Source: a virus
DNA: 22,473 bases
IMG/VR virus record: IMGVR_UViG_3300030389_001833
Span: 1-22,473 of that record
Reading direction: 5' to 3' (one strand)
The notes under the pieces were generated by a model that saw only the letters and a list, made by a program, of their open reading frames with translations, had not been told where the DNA came from and made no database searches. Shown here one piece after another: positions 5,412 through 12,222 of this stretch. How positions within the stretch are numbered: position 1 is the first letter of the stretch; each line of letters opens with the position of its first letter. The translations under genes and the position numbers were made by a program.

Positions 5412-6348
5412 GTTATCCAGCGACAAACACGCTTCCTGTTCAGGCATACCAGTTTTGTTTGGTGTGTCACCTTATGAAACTAAGAATGAATACTTGAAGT
5501 CTAGGATAGATGCCAGAGCGGGTGTCGATGTTAGATCAGACAAAAACAATATGCCGATCGAGATTGGTAACATATTAGAGAAACCATTGATAGAGCTTTC
5601 TGCTGAAAAGTTAGGTTTGACTAATGTAGAAGTTAGCATAAACCAAGCTGTACAGCACTTAGATTTTCCCCTCGAAGGTTCTATTGATGGTACTGCTTAC
5701 GCCAAAAACCTAATCATCAAACCAGACAATGAGCTTACCTATACTGAAGATGACCAAGACATTTTGCTCGATGGTAAAGGCATTATTGAAATCAAAACAA
5801 CTAGACAATTACCAGAATCAGATGGTAAACCACCACTCTGGCGAGGTGTCCTACAAACGAAGGCGCTCTGCGCAATATGTGGGTATTCGTGGGGGCTTGT
5901 GTCAACCCTGCATAATACCAACGATTTTAAGATGTTCCTGTTGCGCAGAGACTTCGCCTTTGAAAAAGAACTCAAAGACATCATAACTGACTTTGAAAGA
6001 CGTATCAAAGAGCAAGACTGGTATGCACCCCAAGTCTTACCCGATCTACAGATTATGCACCCTGTTAGTAAACAAGAGGAAGTAGATCTAAGTGACGATG
6101 AATGTGGCTTCCATTTAGACAGAATCATGGACAATAAAGAAAAGATTAAGTTGCTCAATGAAGAAGTAGAGAAATCACAAATTTATATACAGAGTAAGAT
6201 GGGTGCTGCTGAAGTTGGTCGCAACTACAAATACAAAGTTACTTGGGGATCGACTACTTACAAACCCCAACCCGAGAAAGTTGTACCTGCCAAAGATGGC
6301 TATACCATCAGACGTAAGACGGCTAGTATTAAAAAGCTAGACCTCTGA
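5392..6348 (+). CDS. YqaJ-type (lambda exonuclease-like) viral recombinase nuclease
   Basis: This 318-aa protein shows the YqaJ/lambda-exonuclease PD-(D/E)XK layout. An N-terminal 'SASCSGIPVLFGVSPYET'-like block (residues 11-30) is followed by 'IEIGNILEKPL' with E57/E63, the acidic D99 in 'GSIDG', E133-x-K135 in 'GIIEIKTT', and the QTK helix at 155-157 ('WRGVLQTKALCAI'). Such enzymes degrade one strand of dsDNA ends and work with a single-strand annealing or SSB protein in phage recombination. No annealing protein is next to it, but an SSB-like gene lies in the divergent operon. The C-terminal part has a coiled segment (about 230-275). Its stop overlaps the convergent endolysin gene by 12 nt. 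Confidence 0.85.
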   Translation: MDKALGKLSSDKHASCSGIPVLFGVSPYETKNEYLKSRIDARAGVDVRSDKNNMPIEIGNILEKPLIELSAEKLGLTNVEVSINQAVQHLDFPLEGSIDGTAYAKNLIIKPDNELTYTEDDQDILLDGKGIIEIKTTRQLPESDGKPPLWRGVLQTKALCAICGYSWGLVSTLHNTNDFKMFLLRRDFAFEKELKDIITDFERRIKEQDWYAPQVLPDLQIMHPVSKQEEVDLSDDECGFHLDRIMDNKEKIKLLNEEVEKSQIYIQSKMGAAEVGRNYKYKVTWGSTTYKPQPEKVVPAKDGYTIRRKTASIKKLDL

Positions 6349-6780
6349 CCAGTCCTTGTTAGACCATAGCAGACTTTCTGCCAATCGCCTTCTGACAAGC
6401 CCCTCTAAAATTTCGCCATTAGCTTTGTTCCATCTTTTAATTTCATGTGGTACATCTTCGTACAAACCAGCATTGAGCTTAACCAACAAGGTTGAACTAA
6501 TTAAGTTACCAGCGCCCAAGTTATAGACCCAAGCCACCAAAGCATCGAACTGATGCTGTTCTAACTGCACATCAACCAGCTCATTGATGTAGCCCTCAAA
6601 CTCTTCTAGCTCTATATCTAACATTTCGTCAGCGTTAGCTTGTGACCAAATATCGCCCTGCTGTACGCCCTTAGTGTGTCCATAACCTATTGTCCAGACC
6701 CCTGCTGGACATTGATAGGCCTCTAACTCACAACCTTCAAACTTTTTTATAAGGGCTTTGCCCTCTTCTGATATTTTCAT
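6337..6780 (-). CDS. GH24 phage lysozyme (endolysin)
   Basis: From ATG 6780 the product is 147 aa, typical for T4/P22-type GH24 muramidases that cleave the MurNAc-GlcNAc bond of peptidoglycan. The catalytic pattern is clear. E15 lies in 'KKFEGCELEAY', C24 occupies the position usually held by Asp ('YQCPAG'), T30 follows in 'VWTIGYGHT', and the C-terminal 'RWNKANGEILEGLVRRRLAE' block is conserved. Cys in place of Asp is a known natural variant of the E-8-D/C-5-T motif. There is no signal peptide or SAR helix, so release should need a holin. ATG 6780 follows the nuclease stop by 1 nt; an 11-residue longer start at 6813 would overlap that gene and lacks homology. It is the last gene of the operon. 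Confidence 0.92.
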   Translation of the reverse strand: MKISEEGKALIKKFEGCELEAYQCPAGVWTIGYGHTKGVQQGDIWSQANADEMLDIELEEFEGYINELVDVQLEQHQFDALVAWVYNLGAGNLISSTLLVKLNAGLYEDVPHEIKRWNKANGEILEGLVRRRLAESLLWSNKDWSEV

Positions 6781-6781
6781 C

Positions 6782-7147
6782 TTACCCCCAGACTTTCTTT
6801 TTTGTGCCACCAAAGTATTCGACAGCGTGACCTTCTTCTATTAATTTTTGGCAAATATCTTCTCCGTCTTTGGTGTAAGGTATGCCTAAGATTCTACCAT
6901 ACTTGCCTTTGCCTAAACTCTTGACCAGCAACTCTTCACCGCATAACTCAGCTAATCTGGCTTTAGCTAATAGACCTAAAGCTTTCTCTGCTCTGTTTCT
7001 GGTTCTGGATTCTGGTGTGTCTATACCATGCAACCGTACTCTTTGTTTGTAGAGCCAAACTCCAAAGCCTAAATCAATGTGTACATCAATAGTATCACCA
7101 TCGACTACTCGATCTAATTCACAGTTATATATAAATGCTTCAACCAT
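6782..7147 (-). CDS. Thermonuclease (SNase-like) family nuclease
   Basis: The 121-aa protein has the staphylococcal nuclease (OB-fold) signature. 'RVVDGDTIDV' contains D16/D18, 'RVRLHGIDTPE' contains R38, D43 and E46, and 'GKYGRILG' contains R85, matching the Ca-binding and catalytic positions of SNase. These enzymes cleave DNA and RNA to 3'-phosphates. No signal peptide is visible, so it should act in the cytoplasm unless released at lysis. It overlaps the cyclase gene by 8 nt and lies 1 nt before the endolysin, so it belongs to the same operon. Possible jobs include host nucleic-acid degradation or viscosity reduction at lysis; this is inference. Confidence 0.88.
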   Translation of the reverse strand: MVEAFIYNCELDRVVDGDTIDVHIDLGFGVWLYKQRVRLHGIDTPESRTRNRAEKALGLLAKARLAELCGEELLVKSLGKGKYGRILGIPYTKDGEDICQKLIEEGHAVEYFGGTKKKVWG

Positions 7148-8879
7148 AAGTATATATTTTTAGCGGTTTTGCTTTGCCTTTCACTTTGATCGGCTTCAAT
7201 GATTGTAACTCATAATCAACTGCTTGTGCGGTACTTTCACCAATTAATAAATCTACTCCAACTTCTTTAGTAGCACTTTCTAATCGTGCTGCTGTATTTA
7301 CGGCATCACCTATGGCAGTATAGTCAAATCGTGCATCAGACCCCATATTACCTAACACAGCTTCTCCTGCATTTATCCCTATACCAATATCAATACCTAA
7401 CTGTGCTTCTTGCATTTCGTGTTTTATTTGTAGAGCAGCTTTGATTGCTGCCTCTTCATGTTTTGCTAAATCTATGGGCGCATTAAATATAGCCATCATC
7501 GCATCACCAATATACTTATCAACCATACCACCATGCTCTTGTACAGCTTTGGCTTGTATGGTTAATGCTTTGTTCATAATAGCTGTGACTTCCTCTGGTG
7601 ATTTAGTTTCTGACAACACAGTAAAACCCCTGACATCTGTAAATAAATATGTGCAATAACGCTTCTCGCCACCAAGCTTCAGCAAACTTGGATCGTCTTG
7701 CAGACGTTTGACTTGTCTTGGGTCAAGGTAATGCTCAAACTGTTTTTTGATTTGTTGACGTAATTTGTACTGTTTACGGAAGTTTAAATAGTAAGCGACA
7801 CTAGCTGTCACAAACTCTGATATCAAAGTGTAACTAAAATCCAGCAAAAGACCTGTTCTGATCGTGTAGTAGCCATATAAAGCTGTAGAGCAAAAGATTA
7901 CAGAACCAAGGGTGATAGACCAAGTAAGACCTAGAAAAGAGCTTACAAGCCAAATAAAGACACACAAAATCAGCAAAGCAGATAATTCAGCCACTAAATG
8001 CCAATATGGTATGTAAGGGCTGTTAGGTATAAGCATTGATTCAGCTAAAAAAGCTTGTATCTTGTGTGGCTCTAACAGACCGACTGGTGTAGCTAGTTGA
8101 GGCATAACCCCTTTAGCTGTCACACCAACAAACACAAACTTATCTTTGACAGCCATTTCTTGCAGTGTAGTTTGGGGTGTGTCAACCCAACTGATCCATT
8201 GTCGCCCTAAACTGTCCACTTTGGTCTGCGGTAAACCTCTAACCCTGATTTCTTCTATACCAGCTTGATTTGTTTTGATAATAAAAGTGTCAGCACCCAC
8301 TAGGCTTTTGAGTACCTGAGTGCCGAAACTAGGAATCCAGCCATCAGGTGTTTGCAGTAGCAAAGGTAATCGTCTTACTAAATTATCGGCATCAACTGGG
8401 GCTGAAACCATACCCTCAAGTGCCACGTCAGCTATCAAAGGTATGTTTGGCATATATCCTTGTAGCTGTATGCCTGTCGTTTCTTCACCTAATAAGACTG
8501 TACCTGTAGGTTTAGGATATAAGCCATTGTCAGTCTCGAAGGTGGCAACAACTGTACTATGCTGTTGTATGGAATTGAGGAACAAGCTGTCACCACCAAA
8601 CCGATCTTTGTCTATAAAGGATATAACAAAACCTACACCCAATGCGCCCTTTGCCATGATTTGCTCGTTGATTTCTGCCAATCTTTGTCTTGGAAAGGGA
8701 TAACCACCCTCTGCCCTAACATCACTGTCAGTTATATTTAAGATGGTAAAGTATTCGCTTGGTTTATGTTTCTCCACAAAAGTATCAAAGACTTTCAGCT
8801 TTAGAATCTCTAAGGGTGTGACTTGTAATGCTAGTGGTAAAGCTAACAAAGTTATGAGTGCCAAGCCTATTCTTATCAT
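7140..8879 (-). CDS. CHASE2-sensor class III adenylate cyclase
   Basis: The 579-aa membrane protein starts with a hydrophobic helix (1-20). A CHASE2-type extracytoplasmic domain (about 25-285) contains 'ILNITDSDVRAEGGYPFPRQRLAEI' and 'KFVFVGVTAKGV.....TPVG'. Two or three membrane helices follow (about 295-368), then a short linker and a C-terminal class III nucleotidyl cyclase domain (about 405-579). Metal-binding D415 and D459 are present. K455 and T521 occupy the substrate-selecting positions as in adenylate cyclases, and N528 and R532 are the transition-state residues, so it should be an active cAMP producer. The start overlaps the FecR stop (ATGA). The FecR-CHASE2-cyclase pairing suggests the periplasmic FecR-domain protein feeds this sensor. 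Finding it in a phage operon is unusual. Confidence 0.93.
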   Translation of the reverse strand: MIRIGLALITLLALPLALQVTPLEILKLKVFDTFVEKHKPSEYFTILNITDSDVRAEGGYPFPRQRLAEINEQIMAKGALGVGFVISFIDKDRFGGDSLFLNSIQQHSTVVATFETDNGLYPKPTGTVLLGEETTGIQLQGYMPNIPLIADVALEGMVSAPVDADNLVRRLPLLLQTPDGWIPSFGTQVLKSLVGADTFIIKTNQAGIEEIRVRGLPQTKVDSLGRQWISWVDTPQTTLQEMAVKDKFVFVGVTAKGVMPQLATPVGLLEPHKIQAFLAESMLIPNSPYIPYWHLVAELSALLILCVFIWLVSSFLGLTWSITLGSVIFCSTALYGYYTIRTGLLLDFSYTLISEFVTASVAYYLNFRKQYKLRQQIKKQFEHYLDPRQVKRLQDDPSLLKLGGEKRYCTYLFTDVRGFTVLSETKSPEEVTAIMNKALTIQAKAVQEHGGMVDKYIGDAMMAIFNAPIDLAKHEEAAIKAALQIKHEMQEAQLGIDIGIGINAGEAVLGNMGSDARFDYTAIGDAVNTAARLESATKEVGVDLLIGESTAQAVDYELQSLKPIKVKGKAKPLKIYTYG

Positions 8880-9952
8880 GGGTTTTGGGTAATGGTAATA
8901 CTAGATGATGACCCACCATTGATTTTGACAGTCTTACTGACCCCATCTTGGATGAAGATGACTGTGTATGCGCCACTGCTATCTAAATCAAGATAAGCCT
9001 GTTGATTGACTACCCTTTGCATAGACAAGCGTTCACCCTGTAAAAAGGTTGTAATCTGAGTTTCGGTATCTTGCCCTATGCTTGTTCCACTAATGTTGGC
9101 TGATTCTAGGTTGATGGCTAACTGATCTTGTTCCTCGCCTGTATCTAGTGCATCCAAGACATCTAACAGATCTTCTAAAAAGTTGACATCAAGATAATCT
9201 ATATCCAACTCAGTAAACTCAAAATCTTCATCAAGCTTGAGAAAATCTTCAGCCAATAAATCCACATCTAATTCGTTGTAATCCAAATAGTCAGTCTGTT
9301 GTCGGCTTTCTTCTTCTTGCACAACGACTTCTTTAGGCGGATTGATGATAAGCATATTGTCTATAAAATCCAACGTAATATCTAAGGTCACTGGCTTGGT
9401 GGGTGCTGATTCAAAGACACTGGTTGTGGTAGCTTGATAGGGTTGATTCAGGGTGACTTGCCCTGCTCCTGTCGAGACAATAATCTCACCACTAGCATTA
9501 CCGAATTGATCTGGCAATAAGATTATCAGACTAGAACCAAACTCTGTGGTTGTGACAGTAAAGTCTGTACCCAAAATGGCGATCTCAGCGCTGTCAGTCG
9601 TTAGTTTGACCTTTTGCTTATCCAACGCCCCACTAATGAATCTGATAGTGCCAGAAGCGAATTTAAGGGTCATAGAGCTGTTGTTTTGGTTGTAGATATA
9701 CTCGTCTATGACTAAATTAGAATGTTCTGTTAAACGGACTTGTGTGTTGTCTAAGAAGGTAATAGCGACACGACCTGCCCTAGTCTGTACGTTGTCGTAA
9801 GATTCTATGGCAAAATCTAAGACTGCTGGATAAGGTTGGTCTCGAACTATCTGTCCAAAGCCTTTAAGTTCTGAAATATCGCCTATCGTGTCAGCATGAA
9901 GTGGCAGTGCCACCATCATTTTGCACAATACAAAAAGTGCTATTCGAGCCAT
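8876..9952 (-). CDS. Secreted FecR-domain protein with acidic repeat region
   Basis: The 358-aa protein has a signal peptide (1-20, ending 'LPLHA') and a FecR domain (about 45-145: 'TRAGRVAITFLDNTQVRLTEHSNLVI', 'LKFASGTIRFISG', 'VKLTTDSAEIAILGTDFTV'). A very acidic Asp/Leu-rich stretch follows (about 212-275, with recurring 'LDxDxL' units), then a C-terminal beta-rich part ending 'SSSSITITQNP'. No membrane helix follows the signal peptide and no ECF sigma gene is nearby, so it is not a classical sigma regulator. It resembles FecR proteins encoded next to CHASE2 cyclases and is probably a periplasmic partner or ligand of that sensor. The first 62 nt overlap the end of the curlin gene in another frame. 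Confidence 0.87.
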   Translation of the reverse strand: MARIALFVLCKMMVALPLHADTIGDISELKGFGQIVRDQPYPAVLDFAIESYDNVQTRAGRVAITFLDNTQVRLTEHSNLVIDEYIYNQNNSSMTLKFASGTIRFISGALDKQKVKLTTDSAEIAILGTDFTVTTTEFGSSLIILLPDQFGNASGEIIVSTGAGQVTLNQPYQATTTSVFESAPTKPVTLDITLDFIDNMLIINPPKEVVVQEEESRQQTDYLDYNELDVDLLAEDFLKLDEDFEFTELDIDYLDVNFLEDLLDVLDALDTGEEQDQLAINLESANISGTSIGQDTETQITTFLQGERLSMQRVVNQQAYLDLDSSGAYTVIFIQDGVSKTVKINGGSSSSITITQNP

Positions 9953-10610
9953 TAGCAGTTATTTTAAGGTAATCTCTTGCTAGTGTCGAAGCCTGTGTAA
10001 TGTTGAAAGTGTTACTAGAACCATCTAAGTCTAGGTAAAAGTAGCCAGAATTTGTGGCAGAAGTACCAGCATAACCACTACCAGAGAATGTCAGTTCGTT
10101 GCTGTCACCTAAGATGTCCATGTAATTAGTAGCGTATTCGTAGTCTATGTCAAAATCAAATGTGTTGCTGTCACCATCAATAATCCAGTCTAAGTCTAGA
10201 TAACTGGCATCGCTATCTTCAGCAATGGCTAGATCAAAGGTGTTGCTACTACCTGTAGTTTGGACATTGAGGTTGACATAATCACTAGAGTTGGCTTCTA
10301 AGCTATTCATAACGACATCAAAGACGTTACTATCACCAGCAAAGTTCCAATAAGCTGTGACATTGTCACCATTGAAGTCATCTGCTCTAAAGATATTGCT
10401 TGAGCCTATTTGATTGATGGTGAGTGTCATATCGCTACCACTGAGACCCAAAGCAGTGAGGCTACCAGACGTTGCTTGTGTACCACCCATGAGGTTAGAA
10501 CTACCTAGCTGTTCCAACTTAATTGCAGCATTAGCCCCTGTCTGTGAGACAAAGATCTCATTATCTGCATATACACCAAATGAAATGAAAAATATAATTA
10601 AAAATCTCAT
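9891..10610 (-). CDS. Curlin-like (CsgA/CsgB-type) secreted repeat protein
   Basis: The 239-aa protein has a short signal peptide (1-15, cleavage near 'VYA-DN') and about eight imperfect repeats with a G-[SD]-S-N-x-F core. The cores start at residues 36, 69, 92, 120, 146, 168, 197 and 221, spaced 22-33 residues, with flanking 'ITQ/INQIG'-like strands. This is the pattern of curlin subunits, which stack as beta-solenoids into extracellular amyloid. The repeats are longer and richer in Asp than in E. coli CsgA. Two cysteines near the C-terminus (C227, C239) could form a disulfide. It starts on the csgG stop (ATGA), directly beside CsgG and CsgF, its expected export factors. Only one curlin is visible, so major subunit and nucleator roles cannot be separated. 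Confidence 0.85.
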   Translation of the reverse strand: MRFLIIFFISFGVYADNEIFVSQTGANAAIKLEQLGSSNLMGGTQATSGSLTALGLSGSDMTLTINQIGSSNIFRADDFNGDNVTAYWNFAGDSNVFDVVMNSLEANSSDYVNLNVQTTGSSNTFDLAIAEDSDASYLDLDWIIDGDSNTFDFDIDYEYATNYMDILGDSNELTFSGSGYAGTSATNSGYFYLDLDGSSNTFNITQASTLARDYLKITANGSNSTFCIVQNDGGTATSC

Positions 10611-11452
10611 AAGTTTTTCACCGACCAGTAGCCTCGTTCAATGCCCTGTTCAATAATATTTACTATACCTATTTCAATAGCACTTTGCAAAGCAATGGAT
10701 TTGCTTTCGTTCATAGCATTGCCTGTCTCGAACTCCACCAGCTTAGTGCCATCGGCAATATAGCGAAAAAAATCATTAGATAAACCAACCGATAAAATAG
10801 TTTTCGTAGTTAAGTTTTCTAGTAAAACTTCACCTGTACTAACTGAAACTATCCGCATAGCGACAATGACAGTATCTTCACGATATTGTTTGCTGTTGCC
10901 TATGCCTAGATACCTAGCACCAATACCACCTGACAAGAGGTTAGTGTTGTAGTCAATGATGCCACCCTCAAACAAAATACCTGCAAAGAGTAAAGGCAAC
11001 TCCTCAGTCTCGTCATCGAACTTCTGTCTAGTGGATCTGATGATTTGACGTTCTCTAGTAATATGATCTATGCCAACCCTCTCTACTACCCTAAAAAATT
11101 TAGATTGTTTCAAGGCACGAATCAAGTAAGTTTCTGGCGCTTGGGTCATAGCTGTCGAAAAACTAGCATAGCCATCTATAGATTTACGTTGCCCTGTCAA
11201 GTCTTGAAACTTATATACAGCCACTATGGGCTGCACATTTGCTACCCCAACTTTGGTGATGGCATCTGTAATAGGTTCATTAACAAAAGCAGATTTAGAA
11301 AAACACTCGGCTTTTCCTATGATAGTTACAACATCTTTATAGTCGTTGTCTGGGTTTGTTAAACAGGGTGAGATGTATTCTCTATGAGTTGCGCAACTAA
11401 TCAGTAAAACCGAAAGAGTTGACAGGAATAGTAATTTCAGTAGTTGTGCCAT
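10607..11452 (-). CDS. csgG: CsgG-like outer-membrane curli secretion lipoprotein
   Basis: From ATG 11452 the product is 281 aa, close to the usual CsgG length. A lipoprotein signal peptide ends in the lipobox L-I-S-C (C20). Conserved CsgG blocks follow: 'VAVYKFQDLTGQR', 'YLIRALKQSKFFRVVERVG', 'FAGILFEGGIIDYNTN', 'GGIGARYLGIG', 'TVIVAMRIVSVSTGEVL', 'KTILSVG' and the C-terminal 'IEIGIVNIIEQGIERGYW'. CsgG forms a nonameric outer-membrane channel that exports curli subunits from the periplasm. A TTG one codon upstream (11455) is also possible. The start lies 56 nt inside the csgF 3' end, and the stop overlaps the curlin ATG, so the three genes are coupled. Confidence 0.93.
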   Translation of the reverse strand: MAQLLKLLFLSTLSVLLISCATHREYISPCLTNPDNDYKDVVTIIGKAECFSKSAFVNEPITDAITKVGVANVQPIVAVYKFQDLTGQRKSIDGYASFSTAMTQAPETYLIRALKQSKFFRVVERVGIDHITRERQIIRSTRQKFDDETEELPLLFAGILFEGGIIDYNTNLLSGGIGARYLGIGNSKQYREDTVIVAMRIVSVSTGEVLLENLTTKTILSVGLSNDFFRYIADGTKLVEFETGNAMNESKSIALQSAIEIGIVNIIEQGIERGYWSVKNL

Positions 11453-11891
11453 CAAGAGTATTATATATGCTTAGAGTGATAAATTGTCCATCGCTATCCC
11501 AACTAATCACATTGTCAAACAACACAAACGACCCTGTTAGTTGTGGATCGTCAGAAAATAAAGAATCTGTAATCTGTCTGGAGATGTTTGATAGTATTCT
11601 GGATTGCAAGTTGTTTTTCCATCTTTCTAGTAAAGTATTGTTTTTTTCTCTGAGTTGTTCTTCTAGCTTCGCTTCCAGCTCAAGTCTAATAGTTTCGCTT
11701 CTGGTGAACTCTTGATTCTCTATTGTGAGATAATGCGCTGACGTGCCTAGGCCACTGAAAGACGGAGACTTGAATTGAAACTTGATTTCGTCAGCGAAGA
11801 GGGGCAGTGCTAGTAAAGGGATTAAAAATATCGCACAGCCCATTCGCTTGTGTTTGCTTGTATAGTAATCGTCAATCTTTTCTTTGGTCAT
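11397..11891 (-). CDS. csgF: CsgF-like curli assembly factor
   Basis: The 164-aa product carries a signal peptide (hydrophobic 'AIFLIPLLALPLFA', cleavage before DE). The mature N-terminus 'EIKFQFKSPSFSG' matches the CsgF segment ('FQF.NP.FGG') that inserts into the CsgG pore. Later blocks 'LQSRILSNISRQI' and 'ISWDSDGQFITLSIYNTLDGTTTEITIP' match the CsgF C-terminal domain that nucleates curlin at the cell surface. ATG 11891 gives a long n-region; ATG 11843 (MGCAIFL) would give a more ordinary signal peptide. Neither has a strong Shine-Dalgarno, so the start is uncertain. It overlaps both the holin-like gene (20 nt, if 11891 is used) and csgG. The central charged segment (about 60-100) is longer than in E. 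coli CsgF. Confidence 0.85.
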   Translation of the reverse strand: MTKEKIDDYYTSKHKRMGCAIFLIPLLALPLFADEIKFQFKSPSFSGLGTSAHYLTIENQEFTRSETIRLELEAKLEEQLREKNNTLLERWKNNLQSRILSNISRQITDSLFSDDPQLTGSFVLFDNVISWDSDGQFITLSIYNTLDGTTTEITIPVNSFGFTD

Positions 11892-12222
11892 CTCTATCTG
11901 CCTTGGCTATCTTGTTTGGCTCTATCAGTTGTGGCACACCCAAAATAGTCTTGATTAAAGTGTCCTGTCTTATAATCTCATTGTCAAGACTTCTGATTCT
12001 GTCAATCAGAGCTACCAAGATACCATGTTGTGAATCTAGCTTAGTACCCAACCTTTGTTCCATAGCACTAATCTGCTCTGCCACCTTTTCATCTACCACA
12101 TCTAACTTGCTTTCCATGCCATCTACTATCCGCATGATAAGCTTGTAGATAAAAAAACCTAAACCGACAGCAGCAGCTATCGGAAACCCTAACTGTTGTA
12201 TAACTAAAACTAGATCTTCCAT
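11872..12222 (-). CDS. Holin-like membrane protein (YvrJ/BhlA-like N-terminus, coiled coil)
   Basis: The 116-aa protein begins 'MEDLVLVIQQLGFPIAAAVGLGFFIYKLI', a single transmembrane segment (about 9-31). The 'QLGFPIA' start recalls YvrJ- and BhlA/UviB-type holin-like small phage proteins. A long coiled coil (about 36-95) and a charged, cytoplasmic-looking tail follow. It is the first gene of the operon that ends with the signal-less endolysin, and it fits as the holin. A phage structural or sensory membrane peptide is an alternative. No Shine-Dalgarno precedes the ATG; instead the leader forms one arm of an inverted repeat. Confidence 0.55.
   Translation of the reverse strand: MEDLVLVIQQLGFPIAAAVGLGFFIYKLIMRIVDGMESKLDVVDEKVAEQISAMEQRLGTKLDSQHGILVALIDRIRSLDNEIIRQDTLIKTILGVPQLIEPNKIAKADRDDQRKD

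Follow-up and report, generated by a model that had tools for sequence, protein, structure and literature searches.

A curli-type export cassette with FecR-fold and CHASE2 cyclase genes in a siphovirus-like phage

Results

Six genes of a curli-type cassette

The DNA analysed here, from a marine bacterial virus, is the record IMGVR_UViG_3300030389_001833 of IMG/VR, 22,473 bases long and called the window in its full length; its minus strand carries a curli-type export cassette of six genes, which runs on into two phage genes. In the order of transcription they are:

11872..12222, minus strand: 116-amino-acid (aa) membrane protein, first gene of the cassette; one predicted transmembrane segment near the N-terminus, then a long probable coiled coil
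11397..11891, minus strand: CsgF homologue, 164 aa, with signal peptide (PF10614, E 1e-14); an FxFK[SN]PxFxG segment is kept near the N-terminus
10607..11455, minus strand: CsgG homologue, 282 aa, outer-membrane lipoprotein channel (PF03783, E 3.8e-46; lipobox LISC)
9891..10610, minus strand: curlin-like secreted repeat protein, 239 aa, acidic; predicted beta-solenoid, weak PF07012
8876..9952, minus strand: secreted FecR-fold protein, 358 aa, with signal peptide (PF04773, E 3e-11)
7140..8879, minus strand: CHASE2 and class III adenylate/guanylate cyclase (PF05226, E 1.1e-29; PF00211, E 2.5e-20)
6782..7147, minus strand: SNase-like nuclease, flanking phage gene (PF00565, E 5.5e-13)
6337..6813, minus strand: phage lysozyme (endolysin), end of the overlapping run (PF00959, E 3.4e-48)

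Neighbours overlap throughout this run by 20, 59, 4, 62, 4, 8 and 32 nucleotides (nt), lengths that depend on the start codons chosen in the calling of open reading frames (ORFs). A first-pass annotation made from the sequence alone had described a minimal cassette of three translationally coupled genes, for CsgF, CsgG and a curlin-like protein. All three lie on the minus strand where it placed them, with the lipobox LISC that it had read in CsgG, and with the starts as called the overlaps of 59 nt (CsgF-CsgG) and 4 nt (CsgG-curlin) fit the coupling; the span that it delimited holds a fourth gene (FecR), however, and the cyclase and 116-aa genes also belong to the cassette.

The same gene order was met in viral contigs, where the first-pass annotation had proposed to look for it. 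The complete set, in this order, was found in 164 of 234 viral loci on several unrelated backbones (138 with the plain set, 24 with a doubled small gene and 2 with two cyclase ORFs), and the remaining 70 hold part of that order; these loci are not independent, several coming from one contig (e.g., L012, L135, L212). When CsgG is clustered at 90% identity, 76 of the 92 clusters have a member with the full order. On the strength of the 164 loci, an artefact was rejected as the origin of the cassette. The relatives kept were the best 80 of 157 for CsgG, of at least 596 for FecR and of at least 572 for the small gene. Within these sets, the FecR gene follows a curlin gene in 77/80 loci, the other three lying at contig starts, and the cyclase comes directly after FecR in 71/80 and after an insert in 6; CsgF lies at most 1.2 kb downstream of the small gene in 76 of 79 new loci, and two more end there. 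In a bacterial genome collection, 16 of 20 loci (L084-L098, L101) carry CsgF-CsgG-curlin, 14 of these 16 with the phage-type small gene. Their bins are assigned to Pelagibacter, Maricaulis, Flavobacteriaceae and others, and these are probably misbinned phage contigs. In one locus, L097, CsgF-CsgG-curlin occurs without a small gene in the 4.7 kb upstream.

CsgF and CsgG

Both profile checks proposed for the export proteins gave matches above the family cut-off, PF03783 for CsgG and PF10614 for CsgF (residues 22-156 of 164). CsgG also matches the CsgG of PDB entry 3x2r (E 6.1e-43, residues 76-281). For CsgF, a single-sequence search of the PDB found no CsgF, and a profile built from ten phage CsgF found E. 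coli CsgF 6l7a (E 0.0012, domain 0.013), in an alignment that spans the signal peptide and the F-[KR]-x-P-x-F-x-G segment. We take this kept segment to be the CsgG-binding peptide that sits in the CsgG barrel in CsgG-CsgF structures. Structural models discussed in PMC9004378 were used to argue that phage CsgF may have lost its pairing with CsgG. As read from its sequence, the kept N-terminal segment speaks against such a loss, which is not to say that it proves pairing. Between its lipid Cys and its CsgG domain, CsgG of the window type carries an additional Cys-containing stretch, which does not occur in the phages HTVC008M and Melnitz. A 37% CsgG match was also seen in OR851715, an unannotated 'Salmonella phage' entry of 1,499 bp that is probably host DNA.

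The first-pass annotation had further called the cassette a reduced machine, for want of CsgE, CsgC and CsgD. The first of these was indeed matched in none of nine records at E<=0.001, seven of them contigs and possibly fragments, the full records of HTVC008M and Melnitz being included and the window itself being a fragment; CsgC and CsgD did not turn up among 20 window proteins in a Pfam scan, in which no search by name was made. The description as a reduced machine is thus half right, CsgE not having been found in these records and the cassette, with six genes, being larger than had been described. CsgE is held to help export without being essential, according to work cited in PMC7029224.

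The curlin-like protein

The repeat protein is strongly acidic (30 D/E against 5 K/R in 239 aa). Where about eight repeats of G-[SD]-S-N-x-F had been announced, six were counted with the motif G[SD]SN-x-[FLVIAE], five of them with F; a looser motif, G-x(1,2)-N, occurs 10 times. The former was defined after inspection of the protein, and none of 10,000 shuffles of the mature protein reached six copies (mean 0.02). The curlin identity itself rests on several weak matches. The window copy matched no Pfam family at E<=0.1 as a protein; PF07012, the curlin profile proposed as a check, reached E 0.0022 and 0.0059 when the window was searched in six frames, both under the cut-off, and the best NCBIfam matches, CsgB (0.005) and CsgA (0.08), were far below theirs. 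Among 14 relatives PF07012 is the only Pfam family, found in 8 of the 14 with a best value of 5.3e-4. A hidden Markov model of the family finds the first curlins of HTVC008M (1e-23) and Melnitz (1e-21) in a set of 18 proteins; against PF07012, this Melnitz curlin scores above the cut-off (8.6e-6) and the first HTVC008M curlin gave no match at E<=1.

The AlphaFold2 model, built from 14 alignment rows across which two C-terminal Cys are invariant, has 15 strands (mean predicted local distance difference test score, pLDDT, 77.8; predicted template modelling score 0.75). In VIA-align, its six top rows are SufB-SufD and similar chains with Z of 16.8-19.0, the row after them standing at 13.5; the best is the SufB-SufD complex chain 5awg_B (Z 19.0, root mean square deviation (rmsd) 2.2, 201 residues). 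Foldseek returned no match at E<=0.001, and no curlin chain occurred in the fold-search rows listed or in a PDB sequence search with the curlin alignment. The repeat protein is therefore predicted to be a curlin-like beta-solenoid, the fold whose absence the first-pass annotation had treated as decisive against it; that it is a curlin is suggested by this prediction and by the weak PF07012 matches of its relatives, with the window copy below the curated cut-offs. The second curlin of HTVC008M (L082:6639-7964) also carries a PA14 domain (PF07691, E 2.7e-6), possibly a sugar-binding part.

The FecR-fold protein

The AlphaFold2 model of the FecR protein (mean pLDDT 69.7) is divided into a FecR domain at about residues 20-200, a disordered acidic linker at about 201-285 (28 D/E, 3 K/R for residues 201-285) and a C-terminal beta domain at about 286-358 with seven short strands between 293 and 356. 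FecR regulators of iron signalling have a cytoplasmic anti-sigma N-domain and a transmembrane segment in the middle of the protein. The phage protein has neither: Pfam finds the FecR domain alone (residues 54-137), with no anti-sigma N-domain, and the single hydrophobic segment is N-terminal. No sigma factor was found among the 20 window proteins in the Pfam scan.

By fold, the model aligns in VIA-align with PupR 6ovk (Z 15.8, 137 aligned), with 4m0n (Z 14.2) and with 5ix9, a 'Cell surface anchoring domain' (Z 11.0, rmsd 2.6, 72 of 76 aa, model residues 20-111), so that an anchoring-domain fold is matched at the mature N-terminus. The match is by fold alone, as a PDB search with the FecR domain sequence gave no relative. 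At the other end, the protein terminates in phi-x-phi-x-Q in 169 of 177 related sequences, which are not 177 independent cases, against 7 of 860 other ORFs, and this ending resembles the end of a curlin repeat. From these models, the FecR protein looks like an anchor rather than an iron regulator, the PupR match keeping a signalling role open.

The CHASE2 cyclase and its possible association with FecR in bacteria

Class III cyclases work with two metal Asp, a Lys/Asp base pair and an Asn/Arg, and the catalytic residues are present in the window (D415, K455, D459, D519, N528, R532). A Pycsar system was considered for the cyclase and not retained. Against PycC models the protein scored at best 2.4e-30, via its cyclase part (residues 405-535 in the best match); in a Pycsar-search scan of six other window proteins, the SNase alone matched (C3a212, 1.6e-6). 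The Melnitz cyclase (L083:7826-9877), unlike those of HTVC008M and the window, has S at the D519 and N528 positions and may be inactive.

A CHASE2 match was found in 186 of 385 alphaproteobacterial genomes. Under the initial rule (same strand, 300 nt), a FecR-cyclase pair occurred in 0/30 short loci, FecR matches nonetheless lying in 4/30. Wider regions were fetched for 20 listed places, two of them among these four, with flanks of about 6 kb that are shorter at contig ends, and here 8/20 had a FecR domain near the CHASE2 cyclase; as a control, none of five alphaproteobacterial csgG regions of 19.9 kb each had one. Among the eight bacterial FecR ORFs near CHASE2, three carry GGxGxD (RTX-type) motifs in 5, 7 and 8 copies and five carry none. 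This suggests that the FecR-CHASE2 association exists outside phages, where it may serve surface adhesins.

The 116-aa membrane protein

The first gene of the cassette stands where PMC9599517 reports a 'histidine kinase'. By position and copy number, the family of the 116-aa protein would be that 'histidine kinase'. The protein has one hydrophobic segment (residues 4-22) and lacks a histidine kinase core (HisKA/HATPase), no kinase family being matched at E<=1 in Pfam or NCBIfam. Its family, of 83-117 aa and present in one or two copies in relatives, includes gp011 and gp012 of HTVC008M and 97 and 98 of Melnitz (E 6e-23 to 5e-26 in a set of 18 proteins), in which no kinase domain was found either. 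On this sequence evidence, the 'histidine kinase' position is held by a membrane protein without a kinase domain. Among 50,697 phage records (tblastn, E<=0.01), the family occurs in HTVC008M and Melnitz only, both with csgFG. A holin was considered for this protein and rejected, as no holin family matched and as the family is found in the phage collection in csg phages only. In locus L173 (916-2707), the 116-aa gene lies with genes for a phrog_1544 protein, SNase and lysozyme without the csg cassette, an arrangement that we read as an allele lacking the module.

Phage type and neighbouring genes

In the order of transcription, a tail module precedes the cassette on the minus strand (major tail protein, tail assembly chaperone, tape measure, distal tail protein and gp84-like protein), followed by a 1,692-aa protein assigned to the J position by its place and not by a library scan, a DUF7936 protein and two short ORFs, after which the 116-aa gene begins. 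Part of the J gene gave no blastn match to phage records. A host fragment was rejected as the origin of the cassette, which is bordered by phage tail genes and, at its other end, by lysozyme and replication-type genes; the first-pass annotation had likewise called the flanks phage. The relative G395, whose tail protein is 95% identical to that of the window, encodes a terminase, portal, fused protease-major head protein and tail terminator. The G395 terminase shares 47-50% identity with those of the Roseobacter phages CRP-811, -821, -822, -823, -831 and -406 (50% over 92% for CRP-811). CRP-822 and CRP-406 have siphovirus morphology by transmission electron microscopy (PMC12629253). No tail sheath was seen in the window phage type, of which no full genome was annotated. 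To judge from these sequence relationships, the backbone of the window is siphovirus-like and related to the CRP-822-type roseophages. The G+C content of the window type is 32-41%, and the hosts predicted for the CRP-822-type group are Roseobacter, SAR11, SAR86, KI89A and Flavobacteriales (PMC12629253).

With marker proteins taken from the window and from three further locus types, 80 of 215 CsgG loci received a backbone label, namely S (window type) 20, P 32, T 26 and Q 2, none being mixed; the other 135 are unlabelled. On the CsgG tree, which has several long branches and open forks, all 71 rows need 10 label changes for 7 groups (minimum 6; S 4, T 3), a count that treats unlabelled bacterial-bin contigs as a group of their own, L086 among them having window-type tail matches. 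When the unlabelled and bacterial rows are dropped, 5 groups remain and 6 changes are needed against a minimum of 4 (S 3, T 2, P 2); restricting the labels to S, T and P gives 4 against a minimum of 2. Because the label changes exceed the minimum, a single origin per type would not account for all the moves of the module between backbones; we claim that it changed backbone more than once, not many times. PMC9599517 inferred a transfer between two virus families.

The module is often beside a lysozyme. Among the 92 CsgG cluster representatives, 29 have 2.5 kb on both sides; lysozyme lies within 2.5 kb in 19 of them and a phrog_1544 membrane protein in 14, with both in 5, at least one in 28 and neither in 1, and the other 63 clusters are not judgeable. 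A late, lysis-linked expression of the cassette is plausible. The phrog_1544 protein is not claimed as a holin, given that Pfam has nothing at E<=0.01 for the one in L173 and PHROGs lists no function.

Elsewhere in the window, 1973-2983 encodes an EcoRI-type adenine methyltransferase (PF13651, E 2.9e-124), a Pfam scan of ten window proteins showing no restriction enzyme, and the adjoining 1015-1962 a PAPS-reductase-like protein (PF01507, E 1.3e-7). No tRNA and no Rfam match at the gathering threshold were found, and promoter and terminator scans showed no excess over shuffles.

Discussion

On the gene content, homology and order established for the cassette, we propose a reduced type VIII (curli) system in which a FecR-anchored fibre passes through CsgG and is read by the cyclase, an explanation whose chances, taken whole, we put at about even. 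CsgG, with the N-terminal peptide of CsgF in its barrel, would form the outer-membrane channel. Through it the curlin-like beta-solenoid would leave the infected cell and form amyloid-like surface fibres late in infection. The FecR-fold protein would be the anchor of the fibre and not a regulator of transcription: its N-terminal domain would fold in the periplasm and be retained there, its acidic unstructured linker would run through the CsgG pore, and its C-terminal beta strands would lie outside, where they could dock or nucleate curlin. Such a plug could replace CsgE. The CHASE2 cyclase, which has its catalytic residues, would sense the periplasmic FecR domain and make cyclic AMP (cAMP), and the fibre may make cells aggregate or shield their surface from other phages. 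A precedent for retention exists in adhesins, which are held back by a retention domain that folds inside and is unable to go through the channel (PMC12077191).

Several observations weigh against this proposal. The window curlin taken by itself is under every curated cut-off, and most of its repeats lack the Q carried by the consensus of classical curlin repeats. Confidence in the FecR model is moderate, and by fold it comes closest to a signalling domain, that of the anti-sigma regulator PupR (Z 15.8), ahead of the anchoring domain; as to the latter, 5ix9 presumably corresponds to the retention domain of an RTX adhesin, the ice-binding one of Marinomonas. The resemblance of the FecR C-terminus to curlin is not significant in hhalign against curlin profiles (probability 3.7%, P 0.012; P 0.19 for the FecR N-domain as control), and none of 181 curlins ends in phi-x-phi-x-Q. 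A cyclase is missing from 3 of the best 80 of at least 596 FecR loci. In bacteria, the proximity of FecR to CHASE2 is loose (5/20 within 1.5 kb); the regions were drawn from top scorers, two of them known beforehand to contain a FecR match, and the distance rule was loosened after the initial negative count, with five csgG regions as the control. Finally, no clumping of Melnitz-infected cells was seen in PMC9004378 under its conditions.

The anchor could also be part of a surface-fibre sensor. A curlin-capped FecR plug in CsgG would then report to the CHASE2 cyclase, cAMP would adjust infection or lysis, and the ancestor would be a bacterial pair of FecR retention domain and CHASE2 serving RTX adhesins. 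We offer this version tentatively and consider it doubtful.

Other explanations could be issued for the same genes. With export cassette and fibre unchanged, the FecR protein, the cyclase and the small membrane protein could make up a regulatory circuit, along the lines of PMC9599517 (iron-dependent regulator, cyclase, histidine kinase). The co-location of these genes in the 164 of 234 loci, the PF04773 match, the closeness of the FecR fold to the PupR signalling domain and the catalytic residues of the window cyclase are all in agreement with such a circuit. We nevertheless think it unlikely: the 116-aa protein has no kinase domain, the hydrophobic segment of the FecR protein is N-terminal only and Pfam shows no anti-sigma N-domain in it, and a sigma factor is missing among the 20 scanned proteins.

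The overlap of the cassette with the SNase and lysozyme run, together with the lysozyme (19), phrog_1544 protein (14) or either (28) within 2.5 kb of CsgG in the 29 representatives, would suit a repurposed outer-membrane pore that times or completes lysis, pinholin- or secretin-like, as put forward for Melnitz in PMC9004378. A lysis pore, however, leaves aside the secreted curlin-like protein encoded alongside it, which 77 of the best 80 FecR genes follow, and the two annotated curlin-repeat genes of Melnitz; moreover, phrog_1544 has no assigned function, and no lysis gene is annotated for HTVC008M and Melnitz within the stretches of 13-14 kb examined, so that we hold a lysis pore to be rather improbable. 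A pore through which large nutrients or cofactors are taken up during infection (PMC7029224, PMC9599517) would fit the lack of a CsgE gate in nine records, leaves the conserved secreted curlin, CsgF and the FecR protein unexplained, and is very improbable.

Should the anchored fibre proposed here hold, and the plug model with it, a secretion channel would be gated by the anchor of its own fibre, without CsgE. With an anchor and a small membrane protein in place of an 'iron regulator' and a 'histidine kinase', the roles within the cassette become concretely testable. Because the cultured CRP-822-type relatives of this siphovirus-like backbone show no csg genes, comparisons with and without the module are conceivable. 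Their head and tail gene order is similar to that of the window phage type, a CsgG tblastn over the phage collection matched none of them, and in the main text of PMC12629253 curli, CsgG and FecR do not occur. Phage-encoded curli modules were reported at all 65 ocean stations examined (PMC9599517).

In the literature searched, which left out subscription papers and preprints, we found no report of a siphovirus-like backbone for the module, of a non-kinase small protein, of an anchor-like FecR fold or of a link to CHASE2/RTX proteins. The first-pass annotation had guessed that the full cassette with a curlin might be new, next to CsgG-like annotations in some marine phages, and in this it was wrong. 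The presence of csgF and csgG was reported in pelagimyophages (PMC7029224) and in Melnitz (PMC9004378), and PMC9599517 describes CsgF, CsgG, CsgA/B, FecR, adenylate cyclase and 'histidine kinase' in podo- and myovirus pelagiphages, that is, in two families. These pelagiphage type VIII secretion modules have the same content and order as the cassette of the window, small gene-CsgF-CsgG-curlin-FecR-(curlin)-cyclase, with one or two copies of the small gene before CsgF. The window differs by its siphovirus-like backbone and by having no second curlin between FecR and cyclase, a gene that is frequent and not constant among the modules presented in PMC9599517.

HTVC008M and Melnitz, whose genomes measure 147 and 142 kb and are listed under Kyanoviridae, have the same order and homologues of all six cassette genes, with CsgG 42% and 38% identical to that of the window, respectively; unlike the window, both have a second repeat gene between FecR and cyclase. 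The two annotated curlin-repeat genes of Melnitz (L083:5016-5735 and 6794-7810) are both above the PF07012 cut-off, whereas PMC9004378 states that this phage has no csgA and csgB. Adhesin retention offers a looser parallel: the domain of 5ix9 shares its fold with the N-terminus of the FecR protein, which differs in its classical signal peptide, its size of only 358 aa and an export that would go through CsgG. The curli of bacteria share the core of the system, as five alphaproteobacterial csgG regions (L127-L131) have CsgF, CsgG and curlin-type repeat ORFs as in phage, and, unlike the phage cassette, none of these five has a match to FecR, the cyclase or the 116-aa family. The phage curli module is thus already known in kind, and the window adds to it a further backbone, siphovirus-like by its sequence.

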